64,000 bases of DNA, taken from positions 62,001 through 126,000 of the forward strand of contig CANJII010000001.1 of assembly GCA_947474435.1 (NCBI GenBank), read 5' to 3'. The DNA is from Chitinophagaceae bacterium (GTDB lineage: Bacteria > Bacteroidota > Bacteroidia > Chitinophagales > UBA10324). The notes beneath the pieces are model-generated. The model saw nothing but the letters and a program-made list of their open reading frames with translations. It was not told where the DNA came from and searched no databases. The position numbers and the translations under genes are program-made. Shown in pieces: positions 23,171 through 39,331 of this stretch; within the stretch, counting starts at the first letter, position 1; each line of letters starts with the position of its first letter.

Positions 23171-23205
23171 AAAAAAAGGCAATCCAAATGGATTGTCTTT
23201 TTTTT
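23171..23205 (+). terminator. Bidirectional terminator behind tRNA-Glu
   Basis: GGCAATCC pairs with GGATTGTC around AAAT and is followed by eight T. Seven A precede it, so the reverse strand also reads as stem plus T-run. It can therefore also end the convergent minus-strand operon finishing at 23268. Confidence 0.9.
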
Positions 23206-23267
23206 CATATAGTTACTATTTTCAATTGTTTAAGGCTTTTGAATTATAAATTGATTTGCATCAATTT

Positions 23268-24302
23268 TTAATAAATCATCACTTCCACTTTCCCTTTCTT
23301 ATCAATACTTCCACGAAACATTCCTTCGGTATTAAAAGGCATTTCAATGTTTCCTTTTTTATCAATGCAGATGCAACCGCCTCTTCCGCCTATCTCGACT
23401 AATTTTTCCATGATCACTTTTTTCGATGCCTGCTTCAAACTTTTATGCTTGTATAACATCAACGAAGAAATATCGTGTGCAACAACGAGGCGAATAAAAT
23501 CTTCACCTTTTCCTGTACACGAGATTGCGCAGGACTTATTGTTGGCATATGTGCCGCAACCAATCAATGGTGAGTCGCCAATGCGATTGAATTTTTTATT
23601 TACCAATCCTCCGGTTGAAGTTCCGGCTGCAAGATTTCCGAATTGATCGAGCGCCACACAACCCACTGTTCCGAATTTATCTCCTTCCTTATTATCACCT
23701 GGCAAAATCATTCCGGTTGTATCAGTATGATCAAGCACAACTGTATCTGAATTAATAATTTTCTCCAACTGCTTCTTTCTGAACTCGGTTACAAAGTAAG
23801 AAGTGTCAACTATTTCCAATCCATGTTTTGTTGCAAACTCCTCCGCACCCTTTCCTGAAAGCAAAATAAATTTAGAACTATCTAAAATTTTCCGTGCTGC
23901 ACTTATCGGATTTTTTATTGTTCGAACTCCAGCCACTGCCCCGGCTTTTAAAGTATTGCCATCCATAATTGCTGCATCCATTTCCACTGTTCCCTTATGT
24001 GTGAGCACCGAACCCCTGCCTGCATTAAACAGCGGTGAATTCTCCAACACATTTATAGTTGCCTGCACAGCATCAACCGAGGTTCCTCCGTTTTTTAAAA
24101 TGTTATAACCAGCTTGCAAAGCAAGCGCAAGTGTGTCCTTGTATGCCTTCTCTTGTTCGGGTGAAAGATTCATTGTTTTTAAACTTCCGGCACCCCCGTG
24201 AACAGCAATTGCAAATGATTGATTTAAATTTTTTGACTGAGCCATAACATGATTTGATAAACAAAATGAGAGAAGAAAGAATAACCAGAAAAATATTTTC
24301 AT
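23268..24302 (-). CDS. Secreted isoaspartyl peptidase / plant-type L-asparaginase
   Basis: N-terminal-nucleophile hydrolase of the family that cleaves isoaspartyl (beta-aspartyl) dipeptides and asparagine. Residues 1-21 form a signal peptide ending in VMAQ, so it acts in the periplasm or outside. Seen are FAIAVHGGAGSL (30-41), NAGRGSVLTHKGTVEMDAAI (93-112), and the autocleavage site GDKFGTVGCVALD, with Thr212 as the predicted nucleophile of the mature beta subunit. GTSTGGLVNK is the substrate-binding loop. At 344 residues it is complete. It starts 21 bases after the beta-barrel gene and is probably the last gene of the operon that begins at 28685. Confidence 0.92.
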   Translation of the reverse strand: MKIFFWLFFLLSFCLSNHVMAQSKNLNQSFAIAVHGGAGSLKTMNLSPEQEKAYKDTLALALQAGYNILKNGGTSVDAVQATINVLENSPLFNAGRGSVLTHKGTVEMDAAIMDGNTLKAGAVAGVRTIKNPISAARKILDSSKFILLSGKGAEEFATKHGLEIVDTSYFVTEFRKKQLEKIINSDTVVLDHTDTTGMILPGDNKEGDKFGTVGCVALDQFGNLAAGTSTGGLVNKKFNRIGDSPLIGCGTYANNKSCAISCTGKGEDFIRLVVAHDISSLMLYKHKSLKQASKKVIMEKLVEIGGRGGCICIDKKGNIEMPFNTEGMFRGSIDKKGKVEVMIY

Positions 24303-24323
24303 GATTAAATATCAGTATTATTT

Positions 24324-25004
24324 CTAAAACTTAAAATAACAAATTACTCCTGTGGTAAAATAATTAATTCTGCTCACCCGATTTAAGCCATTGTCAATTG
24401 AATAATAGAATTCAGTTTTGAAAAAGTCGTTGATGTTAAAAAAGCATCCGGCGGTATATCTGATATCAGTCAGAATTCTTTTTCCTGTGGCATTCAGGTT
24501 CATGAAATTCTCAACTGATATATAAGGATTCAGGTAGTAATTAATTTTATACCGAAGTGTAATTTTATTCCGATTATAAATCTGAGGTGCACGATAGTTC
24601 AATGAAAACAGTTTTGGATAATACTGCACCTGGAATCGCGAACGAACTGAAAAACTAAATCGCGAATAATATTTTGAATACGCAGCATCAACATAAATCA
24701 TCTGCCGATCATCGTAAAAGTTTTCAAGGTTTTTTCTTTTTACAAAACGATAATTCACACCAAAAGAAAAATGCCGATTCAATTTGTAATTAACTCCGGC
24801 ATCGGCAAACGCAACTCCTAATTCGTTCAGGTTCTGATTAAATATTTCATTGTTCAAAAATGAAAATGAAAACGAGCGGGATAATTTTTTTTCAATACTG
24901 AATCCTGTTACCATTCTGAAATCATTCTGCGGTTGTGCAAAATTTCGAATTGAAGTGAACAACAGAAAAATGAAAATCAAAATCGATTTAGTAGGTATAG
25001 ACAT
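24324..25004 (-). CDS. DUF2490-like outer-membrane beta-barrel protein
   Basis: A 226-residue predicted outer-membrane barrel. A signal peptide (about 1-23, ending FAQ) is followed by alternating amphipathic strands such as FSFGVNYRFVKRK and KITLRYKINYYLN. It ends in INYFTTGVICYFKF, an aromatic-terminated beta signal. Pattern and length resemble DUF2490 proteins of Bacteroidota, whose function is unknown. Its first 17 bases overlap the end of the preceding gene, so the two are translated from one message. It may form the outer-membrane partner of the ABC transporter encoded two genes upstream, but that is only context. Confidence 0.6.
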   Translation of the reverse strand: MSIPTKSILIFIFLLFTSIRNFAQPQNDFRMVTGFSIEKKLSRSFSFSFLNNEIFNQNLNELGVAFADAGVNYKLNRHFSFGVNYRFVKRKNLENFYDDRQMIYVDAAYSKYYSRFSFSVRSRFQVQYYPKLFSLNYRAPQIYNRNKITLRYKINYYLNPYISVENFMNLNATGKRILTDIRYTAGCFFNINDFFKTEFYYSIDNGLNRVSRINYFTTGVICYFKF

Positions 25005-25554
25005 ATTCTCTTGAATAAATTATCTCGTTCTTTTCGTTAAGTATTTTTTTTGAAGTCAACATTCCTTTCGAATCGTATTCGTACAAAGTTGTTCTGATAA
25101 TCTTTTCAGTTCCATTGGTGGTTACTTCCGTTACCAGATCATTGTCCGGATTATAGGTGTAATCAGTTTCCTCGACAATATTTCCATCCCCATCCAATAC
25201 CGTTTTTATTTTTGCTTCATTCCATTTATCATAAACTGTTCTGGTTGACTTTATAGTTTTTCCGGTGCTGTCAACTACACTACTTTCAGTTTCATCGCCA
25301 TGCAAATTGTAATCGTATTTCTCGTGACGGGTTTGCGCTCCACTTTTATCATATTCTAATAACTCAATGGTTTTTCCTGCTGCATTATAAAATGTTCTGG
25401 TGTGACGAAATACATTTTCTCCTTTGCGGATGTCATTGGTGGTAGATTCAACACACGAAATTTTCTTATCGGCAATTTCTCTTTGCGACTGCGAATAAGA
25501 AGCAGTTACGGAAAAGAGAATTAATAAAACGAGGTTTAAAATTTTCTTTTTCAT
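24988..25554 (-). CDS. Secreted protein with YD-like repeats
   Basis: A 188-residue exported protein of unknown function. The signal peptide is about 1-21 (ASYSQ). The rest is made of short beta repeats of the type Y-(D/N)-x-x-G-x-x-T-E, for example KYDYNLHGDETESS, TVYDKWNEAKIK, YTYNPDNDLVTEV and YEYDSKGMLTSK. These resemble the YD/RHS or MORN-like repeat units of surface proteins, here about six copies. No sorting domain is visible, so it is likely periplasmic or surface-associated. Its ATG overlaps the previous stop by one base, and its end overlaps the next gene by 17. Confidence 0.6.
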   Translation of the reverse strand: MKKKILNLVLLILFSVTASYSQSQREIADKKISCVESTTNDIRKGENVFRHTRTFYNAAGKTIELLEYDKSGAQTRHEKYDYNLHGDETESSVVDSTGKTIKSTRTVYDKWNEAKIKTVLDGDGNIVEETDYTYNPDNDLVTEVTTNGTEKIIRTTLYEYDSKGMLTSKKILNEKNEIIYSREYVYTY

Positions 25555-25970
25555 CAGTTAAAGATATTAAGTGTATCAGTGGATATCACATCTTTCCTAC
25601 CAACGACCCTAATTTGCTGAATGACCGGAATCATTCCTGAAGAAGAACTTTGATGGTTTGAAAAAGTGGAGTCAATCGAATAACAGTAAACCGTGTAATC
25701 ACCTTTGTATAAATACTTGAATTCAAAATCACCATTGTAATCGCTCTTGATTCTTTTGAGATAAGTCTGATCGTTTCCGGCAACGAGATACACATACACA
25801 TCAGCCCCTTCATACTCACTTATAAATTGCGTGAAGGTGGAATTGAAATGCTGCACATGAATGTGACCGTTGATTGTTGCATCACCACCAATACCCGGTT
25901 CTTTCTTACAGGAAGAAAATCCTGCGACTGTAAAAATTAAAACAATGAAAAAGGATATTCTGAAATTCAT
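25554..25970 (-). CDS. Small lipoprotein with carboxypeptidase-regulatory-like fold
   Basis: A 138-residue predicted lipoprotein. The lipobox is AGFSSC with Cys at 21, followed by KKEPG. The remainder reads as one beta-sandwich: NGHIHVQHFN, VYVYLVAGNDQTYLKRIKSD, and YNGDFEFKYLYKGDYTVYCYS. This pattern fits the CarboxypepD_reg-like/peptidase-associated domain common in Bacteroidota lipoproteins. It begins one base after the ABC transporter gene and overlaps the next gene by one base. No enzymatic residues are visible; a scaffold or binding role is inferred. Confidence 0.6.
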   Translation of the reverse strand: MNFRISFFIVLIFTVAGFSSCKKEPGIGGDATINGHIHVQHFNSTFTQFISEYEGADVYVYLVAGNDQTYLKRIKSDYNGDFEFKYLYKGDYTVYCYSIDSTFSNHQSSSSGMIPVIQQIRVVGRKDVISTDTLNIFN

Positions 25971-25971
25971 A

Positions 25972-27654
25972 TCAGTTTGTGTTTTTAGTATTCAATAAAA
26001 TGATTTGATCAGGTTGCAATGAACGATAACCTTCACCGGAAGCGGCTATGATTATTGTTCTTTTACTTCTCAATTTATTAATCCTTTCGGTAATGATTTC
26101 ACGATTCGCTGCATCCAATCCCTTGAATGGTTCATCGAGTAACAAAACTTTTTTTCGTGTAAGCAAAGCGCGACTGAACATTAACATCTTGCGTTCACCA
26201 TAAGAAAGATTTCCGGCAAAGTCATTCAGTTTTCCATTGAGTGTTTCTACAGAAATTTCATTTGAATTAAATTTCAATTGTTGCAATGAAGAAATTGCTT
26301 TCTCTCTCTTCTCCAAGCTTCTGGAATAAGAAACAGCTTTGAAAATGGTATTGCCAGTCAATGGAAAATCATCGCCAACGATGGTTACATTTTTTCGTAT
26401 CAATTTAGGAGTCATGAATGAATAGTTGAAATCATCCAACAAAATTTCTCCGGCATTAACTGGATAAAGATTCATAATCAATTTCAATAAAGTTGATTTA
26501 CCGGTTCCTGCTGCTCCCTCAATAATTGTTAATGAATTTTCATTTGCCTTGAATGAAAACTGATTGAAAATATTTTTTCCTTCCTTGTATGAAAAGGAAA
26601 TATTCTTCATTTCAATTTGTCCGATTGCATCATAATCTTCAATCACTGTTTGCGATTCAACAGGTCGGTTAATCACATTCAATAATTTGTTGTACGAAAC
26701 TGTTCCGGCTCTCCACACCATGTTCACACTAAGTATTCTCCTGAAAACCCGTTGCATGTAAAGCAGAATTAAAATGTAGGCAAACACATCTGCTTTTCGA
26801 ATTCCATACGGTTTTGATTCACGCAATATCATTACATCATACAATACAATTCCTACTGTTGCATAAAATAAAACCGGCAAAAGAGTTTGTACAAACGAAT
26901 AGCGACGGAAATATTTTAAACCGAAATCATAAATTTTTTTTGAACGCGAATTGAATTGTTCTTCTTCCGGTTTCTCCCGATTAAATGCTTTCAGACTGAT
27001 GAACGATTGAAAACGATTCGCCACAAATCCAAGCAATGCACTTTTTGAATTTCGTCTCAACACAATTACATTTCTTAATTCTGTTGTGAAAAAGTAGATG
27101 ATAAAAAATCCAATCAGCAGAACAGAGAAAACAATTATTGTTAATCCCGAACTTGTAGAAAACAAAACCATGAATGCAAGCGACAGAAAAATTAAATCTG
27201 CACTGAACTCAATGATTCCTGTTGTAATAAATTTCTGAATGAAAATTAAATCACCGCTGTAACGGAGTAAGTACTTGCCCGCCGGTTTTTCTTCAAACAC
27301 ACGCATTGGTTGTTTTAACTGAGTGCTGAATGCGAGTTCTCTTATTTCTTTCGAAAACTTTTCGCCAATCACTCCGGCAAAATATTTATGAAAGAAAACT
27401 GTTACACCTGTAAGCAGAATAATTGCTGCGAAGAATAAAAAGAACTGATTGCCAGATACAACTTCAACCGGAAGGTAGTTGAACAATCTGCCTTTCAGTG
27501 AATTTTCATGCAATGCAATTTCATAAAACTTTCCGATGCTGAGTGGTAATAGAATATTCAGCAAGCTGCCCATAACTGCAAAAAACAAAGTTGAGTTAAT
27601 GAGCAGGAAATGTTTTTTTGAAAATTGCAAAATCAATTGCGTACTGGTAATCAT
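25972..27654 (-). CDS. ABC transporter, fused permease and ATPase, with altered Q- and H-loops
   Basis: A 560-residue half-transporter of the exporter type. Residues about 15-330 form a six-helix transmembrane domain. The ATPase domain is about 345-556, with Walker A GAAGTGKST (380-388), signature LSYGE (483-487) and Walker B LLLDEP with Glu508. Two landmarks differ from the norm. The Q-loop reads VTIVGDD with no Gln, and the H-loop reads TIIIAASGE, with Ser near 539 where the switch His is expected. ATP binding is plausible but hydrolysis may be slow or depend on a partner. Its ATG overlaps the stop of the P-loop gene (ATGA). The substrate is unknown. Confidence 0.85.
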   Translation of the reverse strand: MITSTQLILQFSKKHFLLINSTLFFAVMGSLLNILLPLSIGKFYEIALHENSLKGRLFNYLPVEVVSGNQFFLFFAAIILLTGVTVFFHKYFAGVIGEKFSKEIRELAFSTQLKQPMRVFEEKPAGKYLLRYSGDLIFIQKFITTGIIEFSADLIFLSLAFMVLFSTSSGLTIIVFSVLLIGFFIIYFFTTELRNVIVLRRNSKSALLGFVANRFQSFISLKAFNREKPEEEQFNSRSKKIYDFGLKYFRRYSFVQTLLPVLFYATVGIVLYDVMILRESKPYGIRKADVFAYILILLYMQRVFRRILSVNMVWRAGTVSYNKLLNVINRPVESQTVIEDYDAIGQIEMKNISFSYKEGKNIFNQFSFKANENSLTIIEGAAGTGKSTLLKLIMNLYPVNAGEILLDDFNYSFMTPKLIRKNVTIVGDDFPLTGNTIFKAVSYSRSLEKREKAISSLQQLKFNSNEISVETLNGKLNDFAGNLSYGERKMLMFSRALLTRKKVLLLDEPFKGLDAANREIITERINKLRSKRTIIIAASGEGYRSLQPDQIILLNTKNTN

Positions 27655-28685
27655 GCTACCATTAATGATTGGCGAATAAATAAATGGTTGAACCTACCGG
27701 TCATTATCTGGTCAATGGTGAGTACTGGAATGTTGAGGTTGTGTTTCACTTCTTCAATCAGCAACGGACTCATGGTAAACATGCCACTCACAAATGACAC
27801 CATCACACCATACTCGCGCAACAACTGCACGCCGTAATGCGCACTCAAACTATCACCACTCGAAAACACGACTGAGTGAATGGTATTCATAAACTCTTTT
27901 GACTTCAACAGAAAATTTGTTTCGCGCTGATACAATCCATCAGCAATTTCCATTACGATGTAATCCACTTTTTCTGATTCCAGAGAATTTAAAAGTGACT
28001 GATACAAATCAAGCAGATCTTTTTTCTCGCACATGTAAGTGGATGGAAATCCCATGTCGGAAAAATCAAGTGACACATCAGCACCGCAATCAAATACATA
28101 ATCTTTGTCCTTGGTGTGCGCGGTTCCGGTGAATTTTATGAATGCCACTTTATTATTTTTTTCTTTCAGTCCGCGTGCAATGTGAGCGGCTGTTGTCGTT
28201 TTTCCACTGTCCATTGTGGAACCGATAGACAAAATAATTTTCGCATTGTTCGGAACATGACCGCTGAAGGTAGTTTTGGTTTTGTTGTAAAACTTGGTAT
28301 TTATCACTGCACCATTTTCATCGCAGCAATAACCAACCAGTTTGATTTTTGTTGGCTCAATATCTTTCAGCGCATAGTTTTTTGTTTTCACCACTCCTAC
28401 TGCTCCACCTGCTGACAGCATATCATACAATTCCATCGGTTCTTCCGGAACATATCCTTCGTACTGCGCGGTCGCATATCGATCAGCGAATGCAGCCATA
28501 ATAATATCTCCTTCGAAAATCGAAACTGTTCGTTTCAAATCAGACTGAATGGTTTCGTGCTTTCCGCGTTCAACAATTTCGAACAACCCCACATCACCTG
28601 CAATTGGCTTGTAAGAGTTGATGATTGTTTGATTGAAATTATATTTCTGAATGTCTTTGGTGACAATTGTTTTTTTGATTTTCAT
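27651..28685 (-). CDS. DUF1611-like P-loop NTPase
   Basis: A soluble 344-residue protein. The N-terminal domain (about 1-145) has FEGDIIMAAFADRYATAQYEG. The C-terminal domain has a P-loop IGSTMDSGKTTTA (154-166), AFIKFTGTAHTKDKD (181-195), and a second acidic stretch MEIADGLYQRET (245-256). This layout resembles DUF1611-type NTPases, some of which are amino-acid N-acyl or N-acetyl transferases linked to D-glutamate metabolism; I do not claim that activity here. It begins 22 bases after an SBBP gene and overlaps the ABC transporter gene by 4 bases. It may heads a six-gene cassette ending in an isoaspartyl peptidase. Confidence 0.6.
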   Translation of the reverse strand: MKIKKTIVTKDIQKYNFNQTIINSYKPIAGDVGLFEIVERGKHETIQSDLKRTVSIFEGDIIMAAFADRYATAQYEGYVPEEPMELYDMLSAGGAVGVVKTKNYALKDIEPTKIKLVGYCCDENGAVINTKFYNKTKTTFSGHVPNNAKIILSIGSTMDSGKTTTAAHIARGLKEKNNKVAFIKFTGTAHTKDKDYVFDCGADVSLDFSDMGFPSTYMCEKKDLLDLYQSLLNSLESEKVDYIVMEIADGLYQRETNFLLKSKEFMNTIHSVVFSSGDSLSAHYGVQLLREYGVMVSFVSGMFTMSPLLIEEVKHNLNIPVLTIDQIMTGRFNHLFIRQSLMVA

Positions 28686-28707
28686 GATTTATGATTTTAA
28701 GAGTTGA

Positions 28708-31617
28708 TTAAAAGTTTGTGTGAAAAAGTTTGAAAGTTTTTAGTGTGGAATTTTCTGTTGCTATTGAAGCGAAATAAATTCCGGATGAAAGTGCAGGAAC
28801 CGAAACGCGGTAGTTTCCATTGGAAGGAAGCTGTGTTTCAGTAATTAATTTTCCCGTTACATCAAAAAGTTTAAATGAATAAACTGAATGATTACTACCA
28901 GAAATATTTACAGCTAAATAATTATTGAAAGGATTTACAATACTGACTTCAAAATTTTGCTGTAGTAAATCATTGGTGCCAACATAAAATCCGCTGTACT
29001 TAACAACTAAAATATCGCGTTGATTATTTGTTTGCCAGGTGCTGCCCCCAACATACAATGAACTATCGCTGCACCACATCACATTCGGAACATCCAACGA
29101 ATCAGTAGTTGGATTACTAAAGTTTGAATTCCAATAGGAAGTAGTGAGTGAATCAAATGCGCTCAACGAAATATCATAATTCACTGATGATGAATTTCCC
29201 GTATCAATGTGCCCTGCAAAAAAAGTGTGCTGAATGTTGTTGACTAAAACCGCATCACCGATTTCATCCTTCGCGGTTGGATTTAAATTTATCCATTGCT
29301 CATTTCCGTTTGCATCATACGCAATATTTACTTCATCAAAATTTATTGCACCAGAAGCATCAGCATCAGAATATCCGGTCACAATGCAAGTGCCATCAGC
29401 TTTTAATGCACAAGCAGTTGCAGCATCGCCGCCATTCGTGTTGTTAAATCTTTTATTCCATAATAACGAACCCCCAGTCGAATATTTTACAGTAAGGTAA
29501 TCCGATGAATCGGTTGCACCGGCGCTAGCGCCAGTGAGATAAATTTCTTCAGCAGCATTTATTTCCATTGCCGCCGGAACATCATCGCCAAAAGTTCCGT
29601 CAAAAGTTTTTACCCATTGCTGTGTTCCGTTGTTATCATATTTGATAATTAAAAAATCATTATCAGTTCCATTGAAAGTTCTTCCACCTATATACACATT
29701 TCCTGAACCAGCAACACGAATAAAACTTCCGCGATCAGCATTGTTGCCTGTGCCGTTAAAAGTTTTTACCCAAACTATATTCCCGTTTGCATCATACTTA
29801 ATGGTGTTCACATCGTCGTTTGAATTAATGCTTGGGTCAGTATCCACTCTTCCTGTTACATAAATATTTCCCGAGCCATCCAACTTCATATCATACCCCT
29901 TATCATTATTATGCGCAGGCGAATCATAAAACCGATTCCACAACGAATCACCGTTCGAATTATACTTAACTAAAGTAAAATCACCCGATGTTCCCTTGTT
30001 CTTTGTGAAACCCGAAACAAGAATGTTCCCCTGATTATCCAACTCTACTGCATTGGCTTCATCATCACTGTCCGGCGACGAACCATCCACATACTTCATC
30101 CAACTTAAAATTCCGGTTGCATTAAATTTTAACAGAGTGAAATTTCGGTTGCTTCCTTTTCCAACTGAATAACCCGCAGCATACACATTACCTGCACCAT
30201 CTGTTTTTATTTCGCGAATGTTATCGGAGTTATCACCTACGCCATCAAAAATATTAGCGAACGATTGCACACCACTAGAATTATATTTCAACAACACAGC
30301 ATTGCTTTGCTCCGTTGAATTATCCGTGCGACCAACCACAAACACATTTCCGTTTGCATCCGCGCAAATTCCATTTCCTTCATCGTTAAAATTTCCGGTA
30401 CCGTTGTAAGTCTGCGTCCACAACAAAGTTCCGGCAGCGTTGTAGCGCAGCACAGCAATATCATTATTCGAAACCGGAGTTGCATCACTGTCTGATGATC
30501 CCGCAACCACAATGTTTCCGTTCGAGGCAATCACGATTGAAGTAGCCACATCATCATTGCCACCTGCGCCTTCAAATGTTTTCACCCATTGTTGCGTGCC
30601 TGCTGCATTGTATTTTATGGTAGTGAAATTATAGTTTGTGAAAGCCGAAGCATCCGCATCACTCTGACCTGTTACATACACATTGCCGCTGTTGTCAACT
30701 GCAATGGCATTCGCGCGATCGTGTTCAACATTGTCAAATTCCTTTGTCCATACTTCTGTTCCTGATGAATTGTACTTGATTGTAAAATAATCATCGTTGT
30801 TTCCGTTGCTGCTTCGGCCGGTTACATAAATGTTTGCGACATTATCAATGGCCATTGCCAATGCGCGGTCATTATTATTCTGGTCGCCGTACTTCAACCA
30901 GAGCTGCACACCTGATGCGCTGTACTTGATGGTTACATAATCATCATCCACGCCATTGTAACTTCTGCCCGTTACATAGATGTTGTTGCTTCCATCAACA
31001 ACAACTTTAACTGCACGGTCAATTCCATTACCTAATCCATTGTATCGTTTCTCCCACAAAAAATTACCTGTTGCTGAATATTTTATTGTGAGGTAATCAT
31101 CATTTGAAAGTGCAGCCGGGTCCGAATCACTCTGACCGGTTACAATTACATTTCCCTGGTGATCAACTGCAATTGAATTTGGTTGGTCATATTCATTTGA
31201 CAATGCATCGTTGTAAATCTGAGTCCACTGCAAAACTCCATTTGTGTTATATTTCTGTGTCAGGTAATCATCACCTGCTTCAATACTTTTTCCGAATCCG
31301 GTGATATAAATGTTGTTTAATGAATCAGTGACAATAGCAAGCACTTCATCTGGTCCATTGCCTTCATCATTAAATTCTCTTCTCCAAATTTCAGTTCCGC
31401 TGTTACTGAATTTCTGCAACAAAAAATCCCGACTGGTTCCAATGTTTACTGTTGAACCGGCGGTGTAAATATTTCCCTGTACATCAGTTGTGGTGCAGGT
31501 GTAGCGGTCGCTGAAATCGCCTTCGCCATTCCAGGTGGTTGACCATAGTTGTGTTTGCGCCATTGTACTCACGCTCAGCAAAAGCTGTAGCATGAACAAT
31601 GAAATTTTTATTTTCAT
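28708..31617 (-). CDS. SBBP-repeat beta-propeller protein with type IX sorting domain
   Basis: A 969-residue secreted protein. The signal peptide (about 1-20) ends in STMAQ. Roughly 15 SBBP-type repeats of about 50 residues follow, each with a form like GNIYVTGRSYNG--DDDYVTIKYSASGVQLW. Such repeats fold into beta-propeller blades. The last 80 residues (VSIVNPFNNYLAVN, then FKLFDVTGKLITETQL, ending LKTFKLFHTNF) are a type A sorting domain for type IX export. The function is unknown; surface binding or adhesion is typical. It is a paralogue of the 1407-residue protein at 32308-36531. It follows the small gene at 31714 after 96 bases and may share its promoter. Confidence 0.9.
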   Translation of the reverse strand: MKIKISLFMLQLLLSVSTMAQTQLWSTTWNGEGDFSDRYTCTTTDVQGNIYTAGSTVNIGTSRDFLLQKFSNSGTEIWRREFNDEGNGPDEVLAIVTDSLNNIYITGFGKSIEAGDDYLTQKYNTNGVLQWTQIYNDALSNEYDQPNSIAVDHQGNVIVTGQSDSDPAALSNDDYLTIKYSATGNFLWEKRYNGLGNGIDRAVKVVVDGSNNIYVTGRSYNGVDDDYVTIKYSASGVQLWLKYGDQNNNDRALAMAIDNVANIYVTGRSSNGNNDDYFTIKYNSSGTEVWTKEFDNVEHDRANAIAVDNSGNVYVTGQSDADASAFTNYNFTTIKYNAAGTQQWVKTFEGAGGNDDVATSIVIASNGNIVVAGSSDSDATPVSNNDIAVLRYNAAGTLLWTQTYNGTGNFNDEGNGICADANGNVFVVGRTDNSTEQSNAVLLKYNSSGVQSFANIFDGVGDNSDNIREIKTDGAGNVYAAGYSVGKGSNRNFTLLKFNATGILSWMKYVDGSSPDSDDEANAVELDNQGNILVSGFTKNKGTSGDFTLVKYNSNGDSLWNRFYDSPAHNNDKGYDMKLDGSGNIYVTGRVDTDPSINSNDDVNTIKYDANGNIVWVKTFNGTGNNADRGSFIRVAGSGNVYIGGRTFNGTDNDFLIIKYDNNGTQQWVKTFDGTFGDDVPAAMEINAAEEIYLTGASAGATDSSDYLTVKYSTGGSLLWNKRFNNTNGGDAATACALKADGTCIVTGYSDADASGAINFDEVNIAYDANGNEQWINLNPTAKDEIGDAVLVNNIQHTFFAGHIDTGNSSSVNYDISLSAFDSLTTSYWNSNFSNPTTDSLDVPNVMWCSDSSLYVGGSTWQTNNQRDILVVKYSGFYVGTNDLLQQNFEVSIVNPFNNYLAVNISGSNHSVYSFKLFDVTGKLITETQLPSNGNYRVSVPALSSGIYFASIATENSTLKTFKLFHTNF

Positions 31618-31713
31618 TTTTCTTTTTTAAATCAATAATTAGGAAATGTTCCTTTTAAAACAGAAACAGCATTTTGATTTCAATGATGAAATCATCAGAA
31701 GAAATATTTATTC

Positions 31714-32094
31714 TCAGCAACAAGGTGGTTTAATAATTCCGGAAAGAAAACCGGATAGCAATACTTTATTTAAATAAGGGAATTTCTGTACTGAATAATT
31801 TTCGTCAGGAAATAATTTTAATAATACCGGACTCTCGTAGTAAAGAATATTTGCTGCAACCGATGTTCTTGTTTTAAACGGAACTGAGCGATGCCGATTT
31901 TCGAGCCATTGAGTATGATCGCCATCTAAAAAGTGAATGTAAATGAAGTGTGTGAATGTGTAATTCGGGTTTCGGTTAACATGATATCGGAAGTGCCGAA
32001 AATATCCATCCCATTTGCTCATTTCCTTCTCGAGCATTCCGCCCGAAAAGAAAAGTGCAATTGCAAACCAGATGAATATTTTTTTAAGAAACAT
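31714..32094 (-). CDS. Small exported protein of unknown function ending in Cys-Cys
   Basis: A 126-residue protein I do not recognise. An N-terminal hydrophobic stretch (KKIFIWFAIALFFSGG, 4-19) serves as signal peptide or anchor. The rest is rich in aromatic residues and histidine (YFRHFRYHVNRNPNYTFTHF), followed by LDGDHTQWLENRH, and ends in IIKPPCC. No known motif is visible. The gene is real by its position: an ECF-like promoter stands directly before its ATG, leaving almost no leader. It lies ahead of the 969-residue SBBP gene, with which it probably shares a transcript. Confidence 0.6.
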   Translation of the reverse strand: MFLKKIFIWFAIALFFSGGMLEKEMSKWDGYFRHFRYHVNRNPNYTFTHFIYIHFLDGDHTQWLENRHRSVPFKTRTSVAANILYYESPVLLKLFPDENYSVQKFPYLNKVLLSGFLSGIIKPPCC

Positions 32095-32099
32095 ATAAT

Positions 32100-32162
32100 G
32101 ATGATACCTGCACCCCTTGAATGGTTGCGTTAGTTAAGGTGTTGGGTGCTGAATGGGAATAT
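32100..32162 (-). promoter_or_regulatory. ECF-type promoter region (copy 1)
   Basis: On the minus strand it reads TATTCCCATTCAGC, then TAACGCAACC (32132-32123), 14 bases, then GGTATCATC (32108-32100). The AAC core and spacing fit an ECF -35/-10 pair. The same words occur at identical spacing upstream of 36531. The -10 ends 5 bases before the ATG at 32094, so the message would be leaderless or nearly so. Confidence 0.65.
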
Positions 32163-32307
32163 TGTGGAGTTGAATGGTTGAAACCATTCTCTTTACCGTT
32201 CTGCACTGTACTGAAATTTCTTTTAAAATTATTTTTCGAAGATTGTAAGGTTATCATTATTGGAAATTGAAAAATATTTTTTTGCCTATCAAAATTTCAT
32301 TTTGCAA
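32163..32307. other. Gap between SBBP gene and ECF promoter copy 1
   Basis: This AT-rich stretch lies behind the 1407-residue SBBP gene. It contains no gene and no clear hairpin with a T-run. Confidence 0.5.
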
Positions 32308-35300
32308 TTATTGTACTTCAAATCGTTTCACAATTATTTTATCGGCTTGTTGAATTCTTAAGAAATAAATTCCTTTTGCAAACCGGCTAACATCAAAACT
32401 CATTTCATTCATTCCGAATTCAGCGTTGATTTTTTTCTCATCCATTTTTTGTGAGAGAAGATCCAGAATTTGAATTTCACTTTCAGCATTTATTAAAGAA
32501 GAAAACCGAAGTGTGATATAATCGGAAGTCGGGTTTGGAAAAATTTCCAACGATTCACTTGCCATTTCTTCCTCACGACAAGTGATTGAAACTGCGAGTG
32601 ATTTTGTTGCACTGTTTGCACACGCATTGGTTGCATACACTGAAACATTGCCGGCTGTGCTACCGAAATTTATTGATACACTTATTGTTCCCTGCCCGCT
32701 AATAATGCTTGCGCCAACCGGAGCTGACCATGTATATGAAGTTGCTCCGCTCACTGCGGCAATGGAATAAATGACTGCTGCCTGATTTGCACACACAGTT
32801 GCAGTGCCTGTAATTGCAGCCGGTGTTGCAGGGCGTGCATACGCATTTAATGATTTATCAATGCTGCTTCCACAACCATTTGTAGCGTGAACTTTTATGG
32901 TTCCGGAAACAAATGCTGCTGCGAAATTTATTATCACTGCATTGGTTCCCTGTCCGCTTACGATGGATGTGTTTGCAGGAACCGACCATGTATAAGATGT
33001 TGCGCCTGCCATTGCCGTGCAACTGTAATTTTTATTTCCTGCGTTGCATAAATTATTTGTTAAGCCTGTAATAGTTGTTGGTACTGCGGGAACAGAACCG
33101 ATGGCTGCGGTGCGCACTGCACTGGTGCCGCAACCGTTGCTTGCTGTAACAGTGAGGTTTCCATTGGTGAATGTTGCTCCGAAATTTATGGTGACAGATG
33201 TGGTTCCCTGTCCGCTGATGATGGTAGAATTAAGAGGAGCCACCCATGTGTAAGTAGTTGCATTGGCAACGGGAGCAATGGAATAAATAACTGCTGAGGT
33301 GCCCGCGCATACTCCTGTAGTTGGTCCGGTAATAACACCGGGAGTAGCAGGTTTGCTTTTGAGTGCTTTTGTTTTATTGGCGCTTGAACCAAAACAGTTG
33401 ACAGATTTTACACTGAGGTTTCCGCTCACCCATGCGGCTCCGAAAGAAAGTGTGATGGCATTGGTTCCCTGTCCACTGAGGATGGTGGTGTTTGCAGGTG
33501 CTGTCCATAAATAAGAAGTGGCAGTGGCAACCGCAGCGATGGAATAATTAGCTGTAGTGTTCGCACATGAAACAGCGGGGCCGGTAATGGTTCCGGGAAC
33601 GGTAGGAACAGCAACTGTAACAGTGTAATCAAAAGAGGCAACAGGACTTGCGCCGCACACTCCGTTTGCAACCACGGTGATGGAAGCAGAATTAGCAATT
33701 GCAGAAAATGAAAGTGTAACACTGGTGGTTCCCTGCCCCGCAGTAATGGATGCGCCTGAAGTAACAGTCCATGTATAAGAAGTTGCACCTGCAACGGGAT
33801 TGATGGAATAAACCACTCCGGTTTGATTGCGACAAACTACTGCGGTAGTAGTTGTAAAAACAGGAAGAGAAAGCGGCGAACAAAATTTAAGCGTAGTTAA
33901 ATTCAAACCTGTGTTGGTGGCTCCGGTTGAATAACCTGTTACACAAATATTTCCGGCAACATCAACCGCGCCTGTGCGACCAACATCTTCGCCATTGCCG
34001 GTGCCGTTGTATTTATAATTCCAGCTTACAGTTCCGGCATCGTTGTACATGAGTGTAATGAAATCGCTGCCCGATGTAGTACTGAAAGTTTCGCCGACTA
34101 CATAAATATTTCCTGGATTATCAACCATCACATCGTTTCCTCTATCGAATGATAAACCGGTTCCATTGAATCGATTCAACCACAATTGCGCGCCGGTGGT
34201 TAAGTTTAATTTGATGGTGACAATGTCACCTGTATCGGTTATTGAATTTAGTGCACTTCGCCCGGTAAGATAAACTCCATTGGCGTTTGCGGTGATTCCG
34301 TAAGCGCGGTCAACAAAATTTCCGGTGCCGTTGTAATTGTAAGTCCACTGTAACACTCCGCTGTTGTTGTATTTTTTTGCGAAGTAGTCATCATCGTTCG
34401 CAACAGTTCCGGTGTTGCCTGCAACGAATGAATTTCCGCTTGCATCAATAAATAAATCGCGTGGCTGATCATTGAGATTTGCTGCGCCCGCGAAAGCTGA
34501 CAACCAGAGTTGTGTGAGTGCTCCGTTGTATTTTATTACCACTGCATCTTCGTTAGTGCCGTTAAACATTCTTCCGGTGACCCAGATGTTGCTTGCGTTC
34601 AATGCAAAAACTTTCACGCCACGATCAGCGCCATTGCCGGTTCCGTTGTAACGGATAACAGCTTGCTCCACTCCTAAAACAGAAAGTTTAATGGTGGTGA
34701 TATCGTAATTGCTAACGAGGTTCGAAATATTCTGATCACTGTATCCGGTAATAAATGAAGTTCCATTTGGCAATACAGAAATAGAAACCGCTACATCAGC
34801 TTCGTTCACAAAGTTGTATCGGTAAGTCCAAGTGATATTTCCGAGCGTATCGAACTTCACAACTACATAATCATCACTTGTTCCGCTGCCGATGCTGCTG
34901 CCGCAAACATAAATTCCACCCGCAGTGTCTATACCAATTGCTCTTCCTTCATCATCATCAAAAGAGAAATCATAAGTCTTGTTCCAGACTGTTACACCTG
35001 CCGAATTTATTTTTGAGCAGAACAAATTTCTCTTCTGCTCAGCAGTAATTACATACCCCGTGATGAAAATATTTTTATGATTGTCGGTCATCATTGCATT
35101 TACCTTATCGGTAAAATCTCCCTTGCCATTGAATTTTTTACTCCAGAGAAATGCGCCTGTTGCAGTTGCGTAACTGATAACGGCAGCATCTCTTTGTGTT
35201 ACCAAATTTTCTGTTCCGCCAACAATCACCGGATTTCCTGCTGCATCTAAAAACATTCCTTCTGCAATATCATCACTGACTGTTGAAGTTCCGTTCAGAT

Positions 35301-36531
35301 ACACCGCCCACAATTGTGCGCCTGCAGAATTATATTTTACAGTTAAAAAATTATTGGTAGTAATAGATGCAAGTGCATCCATGTCACTTTTCCCTGTAAC
35401 AAAAACATTTCCGTTATCATCCACTAAAATTTTATTCGGGTCTTCTGCATTCAAAACCGGATTGCCGTAAAGCGATGCCCATAGTTGAGTTCCAACAGAA
35501 TTATATTTTATGGTTACATAATCGTAATCGGTATTACCACCTGAATTCTGTATATCTGTTTGCCCTGCCACATACACATTTCCGGTTGCATCAACAGCAA
35601 TGGTGTTTCCGAAATCGTTATCTACATTGTCGTACATCTTAGTCCACTGCGCCACTCCTGCTGAGTTATACTTGATGGTCATGAGGTCGTAATCATTTGC
35701 ATTTTCCGAGCGACCTGTTACATAAATATTTCCGGAAGCATCGCGTGTGATGTCTTCTCCGCGGTCGTTTCCGAACCCGCGATCATAAATGGTTTGCCAT
35801 GTAACTGTTCCAGTTGAAGAATAACTGATGGTGATTACATCATCAAACAAAAGTGAAAATGTTCTACCTGTAATCACACAACCACCAAGATTATCTCCGG
35901 TGATTGCGGTGCCGCGATCGGTAGCGTTCCCTGTTCCGTTGTAGCGTGCCGCCCATAGTTGCACACCTGAAGTATTGTATTTTATGGTGATGATGTCATC
36001 ATTAACTATTGCAGAAGAATCTCTATCACTTTGTCCGGTTACGAAAACATCTCCGGCAGTATTTATAAATAATCCGAGCGGAGAATCATCCTGATTGAAT
36101 GGCAAATAATTGTAAGTAGCAGACCATAATAAAGTTCCGGCATTGGAATATTTCTGTGTGAGAATATCATTCTGAAAAACAGAGCCGCCATCTGTTACAC
36201 CACATACATAAATATTATTTGATGCATCGAGCGCTATGAACATTGCCTTATCGCTTCCGTTTCCATTGGTGTTGTTGTACTGACGAGTCCATACTGTATC
36301 ACCAACAGAATTCATTTTCACCACCAAGTAATCTTTGTCTTGCGCGGTGTTGAATGAATATCCGGCAGCATAAATATTTCCGGCTACATCTTTTACTACA
36401 GCATTGTAACGGTCGGAGTTATCGCCAGTGCCAGATTGTGTGTTCGTCCATTGAGGAGTGACCTGCGCGGAAATTTTTAACGATGCATTTAATAACAGGA
36501 ATACTGAGAGAATAGTAATTCTAAACTTCAT
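32308..36531 (-). CDS. Large SBBP-repeat and PKD-like surface protein with type IX sorting domain
   Basis: A 1407-residue secreted protein. A signal peptide (about 1-22, KISAQ) is followed by about 16 SBBP blades to about residue 860 (GNIYVTGRSENANDYDLMTIKY is one). Then come about six Ig/PKD-like repeats of roughly 80 residues each, built around SYTWSVPANTSIVSGQGTN and ending in GCGSS-like turns. The last 80 residues form a type A sorting domain (LEIFPNPTSDYITLRF and GIYFLRIQQADKIIVKRFEVQ). The function is unknown; extracellular binding is likely. It carries its own ECF-like promoter and lies directly downstream of the sigma/anti-sigma pair, on the same strand. Confidence 0.92.
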   Translation of the reverse strand: MKFRITILSVFLLLNASLKISAQVTPQWTNTQSGTGDNSDRYNAVVKDVAGNIYAAGYSFNTAQDKDYLVVKMNSVGDTVWTRQYNNTNGNGSDKAMFIALDASNNIYVCGVTDGGSVFQNDILTQKYSNAGTLLWSATYNYLPFNQDDSPLGLFINTAGDVFVTGQSDRDSSAIVNDDIITIKYNTSGVQLWAARYNGTGNATDRGTAITGDNLGGCVITGRTFSLLFDDVITISYSSTGTVTWQTIYDRGFGNDRGEDITRDASGNIYVTGRSENANDYDLMTIKYNSAGVAQWTKMYDNVDNDFGNTIAVDATGNVYVAGQTDIQNSGGNTDYDYVTIKYNSVGTQLWASLYGNPVLNAEDPNKILVDDNGNVFVTGKSDMDALASITTNNFLTVKYNSAGAQLWAVYLNGTSTVSDDIAEGMFLDAAGNPVIVGGTENLVTQRDAAVISYATATGAFLWSKKFNGKGDFTDKVNAMMTDNHKNIFITGYVITAEQKRNLFCSKINSAGVTVWNKTYDFSFDDDEGRAIGIDTAGGIYVCGSSIGSGTSDDYVVVKFDTLGNITWTYRYNFVNEADVAVSISVLPNGTSFITGYSDQNISNLVSNYDITTIKLSVLGVEQAVIRYNGTGNGADRGVKVFALNASNIWVTGRMFNGTNEDAVVIKYNGALTQLWLSAFAGAANLNDQPRDLFIDASGNSFVAGNTGTVANDDDYFAKKYNNSGVLQWTYNYNGTGNFVDRAYGITANANGVYLTGRSALNSITDTGDIVTIKLNLTTGAQLWLNRFNGTGLSFDRGNDVMVDNPGNIYVVGETFSTTSGSDFITLMYNDAGTVSWNYKYNGTGNGEDVGRTGAVDVAGNICVTGYSTGATNTGLNLTTLKFCSPLSLPVFTTTTAVVCRNQTGVVYSINPVAGATSYTWTVTSGASITAGQGTTSVTLSFSAIANSASITVVANGVCGASPVASFDYTVTVAVPTVPGTITGPAVSCANTTANYSIAAVATATSYLWTAPANTTILSGQGTNAITLSFGAAWVSGNLSVKSVNCFGSSANKTKALKSKPATPGVITGPTTGVCAGTSAVIYSIAPVANATTYTWVAPLNSTIISGQGTTSVTINFGATFTNGNLTVTASNGCGTSAVRTAAIGSVPAVPTTITGLTNNLCNAGNKNYSCTAMAGATSYTWSVPANTSIVSGQGTNAVIINFAAAFVSGTIKVHATNGCGSSIDKSLNAYARPATPAAITGTATVCANQAAVIYSIAAVSGATSYTWSAPVGASIISGQGTISVSINFGSTAGNVSVYATNACANSATKSLAVSITCREEEMASESLEIFPNPTSDYITLRFSSLINAESEIQILDLLSQKMDEKKINAEFGMNEMSFDVSRFAKGIYFLRIQQADKIIVKRFEVQ
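32582..33880 (-). repeat. Tandem coding repeats (PKD-like modules)
   Basis: About six units of roughly 220-240 bases encode the PKD-like modules. Recurrent words such as CCCTGTCCGCT and CCATGTATAAGA mark equivalent points in successive units on the plus strand. The similarity is high enough for unequal recombination. Confidence 0.7.
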
Positions 36532-36567
36532 TGGTTTGGGTTTATGGTTTTGTGTTATGGTTGATAG

Positions 36568-36630
36568 GATGATACCCTTACCCTGATTAGGGTTGCGTTA
36601 TAAAAGCAGTAAGTTGCTGAACGGGAATAA
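36568..36630 (-). promoter_or_regulatory. ECF-type promoter region (copy 2)
   Basis: On the minus strand it reads TATTCCCGTTCAGC, then TAACGCAACC (36600-36591), 14 bases, then GGTATCATC (36576-36568). All three words have the same offsets as in copy 1 at 32100. It lies 37 bases before the ATG of the large SBBP gene. The remaining bases up to 36777 hold nothing else recognisable. Confidence 0.65.
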
Positions 36631-36777
36631 TAAATATCTGAGCAAAACAATTTCAGGTAAAATCATTTAAAATCAAATTTAAAATTCATCGATAAAAATC
36701 GAATTGATATCCGTTTGTAGCATTAAGAATATTTTTATCGAATTGGAATTACTTACAATTAAAATTTAATGAAAGCA

Positions 36778-38307
36778 TTAAAAACTATAAAACAAGCCGG
36801 TTTTTACTCCCAAAGAAAAAGGATAACAGTTAACCGAAATATTTTGTGTTAGCGAATTTACTGAGCCACGATACGATGGTTCAATAAAAAATCCAAGATG
36901 ATTGAATGCACGATAACGAACACCCGCTCCCAATAGAAAACCATAATTCATTTTCTTAACACCATCTATTTCATTGAAAAAAGTTTTATCAGCATTGTTC
37001 AATTGCAGTCTTGCTTTTGCCTGCATTAAAAAATTTGCAGCAATACCGGAGTACCCATAAAAGCTGAACCGGTTTTTTGTTAGCTGATAATTTACCGTGA
37101 ATGGAATGCTGATGAATTTTACTGAAAGCAAACAGGTGGTATTTAATTTCAGGCTGTCACCTTTTTGCAATGGTGTTACATTATCATTCGGAATTTGGAT
37201 GTTGCCGCATGAAGTGGTGTATAAATAATTAATTTGATTCTGGTCATCATAATCTGCGTAAATGGTTGTTAAATCAGAAGAATAAGAGAGTGTGGAATAG
37301 GTAAGACCTGTTGTGAAACCAAAATGCTTTGTTAAACCATATTGCAATTTTATTCCGGTGCTAAACGCATATTTAACTTTCTCGTGATCGTAATATTCTA
37401 TAACAGGTTCTGAACCACCGGAGCTATTTGGAGTCAACCGGTTTTTTGTAAAATCAGGGGAATAAAAAACAGCAATAGAAAGATTGTTTTTGTTTTTTTT
37501 GTTGAGTGGAATATTATTTAATGCGGTGTCGCTGTTGGTAATTGCAATATTTTTATTTTCATCAGTGATGATAGTTTCTTTTGTTAAAGTGTCTTCATCG
37601 ATTTTATCCGAAATACTGTTTTCAGTTACAACCGTTACACTTTGCGAATTGTTTGTGGTATTGTTTTCAATAGAAACAAGAATATCTGAACCAACCACTT
37701 TTTCGACATCAGAAATATTTTCAGTTGAGGGATTAATTTTTTCTTCTGTTATAATTAATTGTTTATCCGAAACAGCATTCAGCTTTTTGTTCTCAGGATT
37801 TACCGATTCATTTTTAGTTTTTTTTTCGCCTTGCTGATGTACAACTTTGTTTTCGCTTTCAGATTTTACAACTGACGAATTTGAATTGCGATCAGATATT
37901 TTTGTTAATGTACTTTTCGTCTTGTCTGTTGTTGCTGAGCTAACAGATGTAGAATTCTGATTTGCCGGGTTTGTCAAATCATTATTGCTTTCTTCTGTTT
38001 TCTTTTTGTCTTCTATTGATGCATTGTTGTCAGCATTTTTAACAACCGGCATTTCCTTACTTAAATTATTACTGGTTGATTCGGGATTCTTATTTGGTAA
38101 AACAATAAAGTAAGTAACAACTGAAATGAGCAATAAACTAATTCCTATGACAATTGCTTTACGCGCAGTAAAACCACCTTTGTTTTCAAGCGCCATTTTT
38201 TTATCGAGCGCAGAATTCAGCAAATCCCACGCATTATCAGGCGGATCCATTTTTAGCTTATGGACTTCAGCAGGCGTTAAAAAATGTTTATCGTTACTTG
38301 CTTCCAC
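36778..38307 (-). CDS. Trans-envelope anti-sigma factor fused to an outer-membrane beta-barrel
   Basis: A 509-residue protein in three parts. Residues 1-48 are a soluble N-terminus (TPAEVHKLKMDPPDNAWDLL, then LNSALDKKMALE) suitable as a cytoplasmic anti-sigma segment. One membrane helix follows at about 49-69 (AIVIGISLLLISVVTYFIVL). Residues about 72-270 are a Ser/Thr/Asn/Lys-rich linker. The C-terminal part is a PorT/OMP_b-brl-type barrel with YAFSTGIKLQYGLTKHFGFTTGL and a final FSLGVKTGLFYSF beta signal. This arrangement matches the dual membrane-spanning anti-sigma factors described in Bacteroides. It overlaps the ECF sigma gene by 14 bases, so the pair is co-translated. Confidence 0.75.
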   Translation of the reverse strand: MEASNDKHFLTPAEVHKLKMDPPDNAWDLLNSALDKKMALENKGGFTARKAIVIGISLLLISVVTYFIVLPNKNPESTSNNLSKEMPVVKNADNNASIEDKKKTEESNNDLTNPANQNSTSVSSATTDKTKSTLTKISDRNSNSSVVKSESENKVVHQQGEKKTKNESVNPENKKLNAVSDKQLIITEEKINPSTENISDVEKVVGSDILVSIENNTTNNSQSVTVVTENSISDKIDEDTLTKETIITDENKNIAITNSDTALNNIPLNKKNKNNLSIAVFYSPDFTKNRLTPNSSGGSEPVIEYYDHEKVKYAFSTGIKLQYGLTKHFGFTTGLTYSTLSYSSDLTTIYADYDDQNQINYLYTTSCGNIQIPNDNVTPLQKGDSLKLNTTCLLSVKFISIPFTVNYQLTKNRFSFYGYSGIAANFLMQAKARLQLNNADKTFFNEIDGVKKMNYGFLLGAGVRYRAFNHLGFFIEPSYRGSVNSLTQNISVNCYPFSLGVKTGLFYSF

Positions 38308-38899
38308 TGTAGTTTAACTTTTGCGCTGATTTAATTTCTTCATCCTTAATGGCGTTCTGCAAAATTACTTTTGCCCGCGACAAGTTTGATTTTGATGTTC
38401 CTTCCGAGATACCCAATTGAGTAGCAATTTCATGATGCTTTAATCCTTCTAACTCATACAAATTAAAAACTAATTTATATGCAGGTGGCAAATTATCAAT
38501 CAACTTCATAATCTTATTCGCTTCTGTTTGGCCAACAAAATCATCAGAGTAATATTGATTTGATTTATTCTCCACCTCTGCCACATCTTCAATGTTCACG
38601 ATTTCCAACGATTTCTTCTTGAATTTTTTCAGTGCCGTGTTTACCATTATTCTCCGCATCCAACCTTCAAGTGGTCCTTCGTTTCTGAAATTTTTTATGT
38701 TTTCAAAAATCTTCATGAATCCTTCGTGAAAAGTATCTTCTGCTTCTTCACGACTGTTTGAGTAGCGATAGCATACGGCAAACAGTTGAGAAGAAAATTG
38801 TTTGTAAAGTTCATTCTGAGAAGTACGATTCCGTTCGACACACCCTTTAATAAGTGCCTCGAAATTTTCACTAACAGAACCGATTTGCTTTTCATCCAT
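38294..38899 (-). CDS. ECF RNA polymerase sigma factor
   Basis: An ECF sigma of about 201 residues. Region 2 has AVCYRYSNSREEAEDTFHEGFMKIFENI and the downstream WMRRIMVNTALKKFKK. Region 4 has LPPAYKLVFNLYELEGLKHHEIATQL, then LGISEGTSKSNLSRAK, the helix-turn-helix that reads the -35 box. I start it at ATG 38897-38899 (MDEKQIGS). A TTG five codons upstream is possible. The gene overlaps its anti-sigma partner by 14 bases. Probable targets are the two ECF-type promoters at 32100 and 36568, and possibly its own promoter at 38904. Confidence 0.93.
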   Translation of the reverse strand: MDEKQIGSVSENFEALIKGCVERNRTSQNELYKQFSSQLFAVCYRYSNSREEAEDTFHEGFMKIFENIKNFRNEGPLEGWMRRIMVNTALKKFKKKSLEIVNIEDVAEVENKSNQYYSDDFVGQTEANKIMKLIDNLPPAYKLVFNLYELEGLKHHEIATQLGISEGTSKSNLSRAKVILQNAIKDEEIKSAQKLNYSGSK

Positions 38900-38903
38900 A
38901 GAG

Positions 38904-38934
38904 ATAGATTCCAAACTTGGAAAATGGTTGCTTT
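38904..38934 (-). promoter_or_regulatory. Possible autoregulatory ECF promoter
   Basis: On the minus strand GCAACC (38931-38926), 13 bases, then GGAATC (38912-38907) resemble the GCAACC-N14-GGTATC of the two ECF copies, with one mismatch and one base less spacing. A separate TACCTTFG-like housekeeping -7 word, TACCTTTG, lies at 38960-38953 without a paired TTG. Either could drive the sigma gene. Confidence 0.35.
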
Positions 38935-39331
38935 GATTTTTTTATTCGGCGCCAAAGGTATTCGGTAGTCAATATTTAAAAAATAAATTCGGTCATAGTT
39001 AACTATTCTGAAATATTATAAGTTTAACAATATGAATTTTTAGCTTGCGTAAAAAACTTCAAATATTTTCAATGAGATAATTTTGACATGATTGACTGAT
39101 AAAATCCTGTTTCATGCAGGATTTTTTTTTGAAAATAATTTAATCAGAATATTTAAAATGGATATTCTGATTTCTCCTTCTCATAAATTCACTTTTCATT
39201 TTCGCACCACTTCAACAAATATTTTTTTATCAACATCCAATCCACGACAAACTGATTTTTCTCCACAGGATTTTTTTGTAATTATGGAAACGGCGAAGAA
39301 TGTTTTCTATTCTTGTCGCCCCGCAAAAATA
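38935..39331. other. Divergent gap between ECF sigma gene and dnaB
   Basis: About 400 AT-rich bases. They hold the orphan terminator at 39101-39130 and a possible sigma-gene promoter. An open frame in phase with dnaB extends back to 39092, but its amino-acid sequence does not look like a DnaB N-terminus. No clear dnaB promoter is seen. Confidence 0.5.
39101..39130 (+). terminator. Orphan plus-strand terminator upstream of dnaB
   Basis: AATCCTG pairs with CAGGATT around TTTCATG and is followed by nine T. No plus-strand gene lies upstream within the divergent gap, so it ends either a short unannotated RNA or forms part of the dnaB leader. Confidence 0.6.

Follow-up and report, generated by a model that had tools for sequence, protein, structure and literature searches.

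We identified what is probably an autoregulated circuit of an ECF sigma factor and an anti-sigma factor of the dual membrane-spanning (Dma) type, with large surface proteins secreted by the type IX system as its candidate regulon. The pair lies in a 64,000-nucleotide stretch of a Chitinophagaceae bacterium genome, hereafter the window (the genome itself is G000). A shared regulon of surface proteins had been proposed by the original prediction, and reading the sequence further we found support for it in the sharing of promoters, in their conservation and in a locus unlinked to the pair. The features in the window are collected in Table 1.

Table 1. Features of the candidate regulon in the window.
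Feature	Position	Strand	Basis or remark
16-kb block	23176..39210	.	Missing in G001 and G003, where gapA adjoins dnaB
Terminator-like hairpin, unit end	23180..23195	-	Weak alone: 13 such sites vs 11.5 expected
Downstream genes, likely SBBP2 operon	23268..28685	-	Gaps ≤22 nt; same order in G002
SBBP2	28708..31617	-	Propeller (SBBP) repeats, type IX sorting tail (Por_Secre_tail); 87% identical in G002
Small exported protein (small1)	31714..32094	-	Paralogue (small2) at unlinked G000:C15
Small-gene/SBBP2 operon promoter GCAACC-N14-GGTATC	32103..32128	-	ATG 9 nt downstream
Upstream box TTCCCATTCAGC at small-gene/SBBP2 promoter	32148..32159	-	Composite-pattern search
SBBP1	32308..36531	-	Propeller (SBBP) repeats, five PKD_6 stretches, type IX sorting tail (Por_Secre_tail)
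SBBP1 promoter GCAACC-N14-GGTATC	36571..36596	-	Identical in G002
Upstream box TTCCCGTTCAGC at SBBP1	36616..36627	-	19 nt ahead of -35
Predicted trans-envelope anti-sigma, Dma type	36778..38307	-	PF13568; hydropathy, composition
ECF sigma	38294..38899	-	Sigma70_r2 and r4_2; start moved to ATG 38899
Sigma-gene promoter GCAACC-N13-GGAATC	38907..38931	-	ATG 8 nt downstream; whole element identical in G002

Architecture of the sigma/anti-sigma pair

An ECF sigma gene overlapping an anti-sigma gene had been predicted here, and we confirmed both reading frames with their domains, coordinates included. Regions 2 and 4 were found in the sigma reading frame at 38294-38914 of the minus strand (Pfam E values of 6e-14 and 1e-15), and its scores against specific NCBIfam models were under their cut-offs. 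The location of the sigma gene held, but its start is most likely ATG 38899 in place of TTG, because a variant promoter at 38907-38931 overlaps the TTG. The pairing of the two proteins was supported by the overlap of their genes and by the sigma adjacency retained among relatives of the anti-sigma.

The anti-sigma comprises an N-terminal domain, a transmembrane helix at about residues 52-70, a polar tether at about residues 70-280, and a C-terminal barrel. Its sole hydrophobic stretch by hydropathy (about residues 44-74, peak 2.8) corresponds to a single transmembrane helix on the N-terminal side. The tether, of about 208 residues, is 75% polar or small and contains no Trp, Phe, Tyr, or Cys; judged by composition alone, it would be long, disordered, and periplasmic. 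The barrel matched PF13568 over the Pfam cut-off (E = 2.3e-7) and has phenylalanine as its C-terminal residue, and among the 20 proteins aligned as its family, 16 matched PF13568 as well. A single-sequence AlphaFold model of the protein had a pLDDT of 33. The topology predicted for the anti-sigma runs from the cytoplasm to the outer membrane. Assignment of the pair to the Dma type was made by architecture (helix, tether, barrel, and adjacent sigma).

An ECF sigma with an envelope anti-sigma is also the general plan of classical FecR-like cell-surface signaling, in which a TonB-dependent receptor would feed the anti-sigma. It is highly improbable that the pair works in this manner, given that the anti-sigma has no FecR domain, that here and in most relatives it carries the barrel within its own polypeptide, and that the genes scanned in the surrounding block revealed no TonB-dependent receptor.

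Surface-protein genes and their operon

The two SBBP propeller proteins with type IX tails and the small open reading frame were located as predicted. The C-terminal sorting domains of SBBP1 and SBBP2 scored above the Pfam cut-off, by which we assigned both as type IX cargo, and a Pfam search with the small reading frame (31714-32094) returned no family. The candidate transcription unit reaches past 28708 and down to a terminator-like site, a probable long operon that the original prediction did not contain. Genes at 23268-28685 encode a P-loop protein, an ABC transporter, a lipoprotein-like protein, an RHS-like protein, a DUF2490 protein, and an asparaginase/isoaspartyl peptidase. These six genes behind SBBP2 likely belong to its operon, and the short gaps between them together with the gene order in G002 suggest that the small1 promoter may drive them as well. 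A search without a positive control did not find the P-loop gene in four congeners.

A shared promoter and a second upstream box

ECF-type promoters had been proposed before SBBP1 and before the small gene. Exact GCAACC-N14-GGTATC occurred twice in the window against zero expected, and a pattern search of the whole 3.5-Mb genome returned exactly these two sites. When one mismatch was allowed, the genome held 12 further matches compared to 4 for a reversed control. We checked whether the motif was scattered randomly over the genome; it was not, and it is also preserved in the sole congener that carries the pair. Exact matches with N13 and N15 spacing elsewhere in the genome were treated as chance.

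Beyond the predicted promoters, we found a variant, GCAACC-N13-GGAATC, before the sigma ATG in both G000 and G002. Its spacing is N13, as opposed to N14 at the SBBP1 and small1 promoters, and it would serve as an autoregulatory site. Start codons stand 8-9 nt past the -10 box (38899-38931 and 32092-32128 in the window), and this short distance suggests that the messages of the sigma and the small gene are leaderless.

A second box, TTCCCRYTCAGC, lies upstream of the surface-protein promoters, whereas the sigma gene has at most a weak form of it ahead of its promoter. Among 398 genomes of the order, exact TTCCCRYTCAGC-N19-GCAACC was found six times, three times in G000 and three times in G002, with no match in the remaining 396. 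At one mismatch there were 15 scattered matches elsewhere, compared to 5 for the reversed control. The second box appears to mark surface-protein promoters only, and an activator may bind there.

The third exact composite site in G000 is at an unlinked locus on contig 15, where small2 (G000:C15:18197) is preceded by TTTCCCGCTCAGC-N19-GCAACC. The operon comprises small2, a DUF7948/CHU_C protein, and proteins of 705 and 679 amino acids, both with fn3 domains and type IX tails; the sorting domains of the contig-15 proteins are PF18962 or CHU_C. Having a boxed promoter before type IX surface proteins at an unlinked locus is the main evidence that regulation probably acts in trans. This operon keeps its promoter in G000 despite the unlinked position, while its counterpart in G002 adjoins SBBP1. 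The promoter has survived whichever rearrangement took place between the two genomes.

We considered whether the sigma drives only itself and its immediate neighbors, with the other boxes being relics of duplicated promoter segments. SBBP1 and SBBP2 are indeed paralogues, as are small1 and small2. However, the small proteins are only 23% identical and the SBBP proteins 41%, the unlinked contig-15 copy retains boxes and spacing, and these survive within decayed flanks. In two of the three orthologue pairs, those of SBBP1 and small2, likeness of the upstream flanks has fallen to near random (23/77 and 20/77), while the box segments still agree at 13/14 and 11/14 positions. We regard relic boxes as very unlikely and favor a sigma that would act on all of these promoters. 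The -10 of small2 is unlike between orthologues (TGAATC vs GGCATC).

Conservation within the genus and across the order

Only one other genome of the genus shares the system. Among six genomes, the anti-sigma (67% identical) and the small gene are common only to G002, the metagenome-assembled genome Chitinophagaceae bacterium nzgw146, and the anti-sigma, small gene, and box are absent in four congeners. The sigma orthologue in G002 is 93% identical. There, the SBBP1 and small1 promoters are retained at the orthologues, the SBBP1 and SBBP2 orthologues sit on other contigs, and a further copy of the motif separates the anti-sigma gene from that of a giant DUF7948 protein. Gene content at the ends of G002 contigs 445, 179, and 362 suggests one continuous cluster that was left unassembled. 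The candidate regulon is present in two genomes only. Motif matches in G001, G003, G004, and G002 contigs 105 and 233 had other surroundings and lacked the box; we regarded these as chance or unrelated occurrences.

In G001 and G003, homology to the window ends at about 23175 and restarts at about 39211, delimiting the block in Table 1. Its GC content (38.1%, vs 38.4% and 37.2% in the flanks) gave no sign for or against horizontal origin. G003, which does not have the pair, encodes a 1406-amino-acid SBBP1-like protein without the motif (L159:10523-14743). A further ECF sigma followed by an anti-sigma-like gene lies between this pair and dnaB in G002 (L030:6108-7665), and a similar pair adjoins dnaB in G004 (L166:7935-9264).

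We then compared related pairs across the order. Upstream of the sigma, (G/C)CAACC was found at 15 of 25 pairs (background 8.2%, P ~8e-11) and was missing at the other 10, and it was found downstream of the anti-sigma at 7 of 25 (P = 0.003), these P values and the next being optimistic because the C variant, unlike the GCAACC seed taken from the window, was introduced once some of the loci under test had been looked at. A(T/C)C occupied the -10 position at 15 of 19 distant sites (background 14%, P ~3e-10; two of the 19 overlap). No (G/C)CAACC was found upstream of five other ECF genes. Because (G/C)CAACC precedes the sigma in 15 of 25 pairs, autoregulation by the sigma looks family-wide. One genome, G140, holds two distinct pairs of the same type (L092 and L093).

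Conservation of the targets was different. SBBP genes had been expected to recur beside the pair in Bacteroidota, an expectation that the order-wide comparison did not support: no SBBP gene lay downstream of any of 20 distant pairs. Genes for small lipoprotein-like products were common there, and in 3 of the 20 one of the next genes encodes a type IX protein. The SBBP link extends no further than the two congeners.

The boxes could instead be an operator bound by some other activator or repressor, with the sigma pair a mere neighbor. With its length of 12 bp and constant 19-nt distance to GCAACC, the second box does resemble a protein site near -62, and its absence or weakness at the sigma promoter is as this explanation would have it. 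Nonetheless, (G/C)CAACC and A(T/C)C stand at fixed spacing before sigmas order-wide without the box, and the regulon promoters are missing where the pair is missing. We consider a separate regulator of this kind unlikely, and retain the sigma as the probable link among the promoters.

Discussion

In the circuit that we propose, the N-terminal domain of the anti-sigma would capture the sigma at the inner membrane, with the rest of the protein tethered through the periplasm and ending in an outer-membrane barrel. Once the barrel or the tether receives a signal, the sigma would be freed and would bind (G/C)CAACC-N13/14-G.ATC at its own gene, SBBP1, the small-gene/SBBP2 operon, and the contig-15 operon. 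A putative activator would act at the surface-protein promoters only, through the second box that precedes their -35 by 19 nt. It is conceivable, although doubtful, that the arrangement amounts to a two-input gate: the barrel responds to a state of the cell surface and frees the sigma, a separate factor acts at the TTCCCRYTCAGC box, and the giant type IX proteins need both while the pair is simply autoregulated.

Known systems resemble parts of this circuit. In Bacteroides thetaiotaomicron, Dma1/Das1 and Dma2/Das2 likewise have a sigma beside an anti-sigma with an N-terminal domain, transmembrane helix, disordered tether, and barrel (PMC13088901). A dma2 mutant strongly up-regulates the sigma gene and its neighbors (PMC13088901), which fits autoregulation with local targets and supports our reading by analogy only. 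The Dma1 and Dma2 systems act on NigD1 or DUF genes and on polysaccharide loci, with increased vesiculation (PMC13088901), whereas the candidate targets here are large type IX-secreted SBBP/DUF7948 proteins. ECF sigmas have also been tied to type IX secretion: PorXY-SigP of Porphyromonas gingivalis controls components of the secretion machinery (PMC4800418), as do SM6 ECF promoters of Flavobacterium psychrophilum, where the -10 holds CGT (PMC9723704). In contrast to both, the candidate targets here are cargo, the anti-sigma is predicted to be trans-envelope, and the promoter is different. We found no link between SBBP proteins and such an anti-sigma in the literature searched, a weak negative given that it mostly excluded subscription papers.

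Our best reading is a sigma circuit of the Dma type with a probable regulon of surface proteins. Anti-sigmas of this type were described only recently, and little is known of the signals they respond to or of their direct promoters. The present pair offers a candidate promoter consensus for Dma-type pairs over an order. One member of a recently described sensor class appears to gain concrete target genes, in several operons under the same promoter. SBBP surface proteins, whose function is obscure, look here to be under the joint control of a sensor in the outer membrane, which provides a handle on them. With a compact list of surface-protein targets and a block that is present or absent among congeners, signal, promoter, and output become testable jointly.
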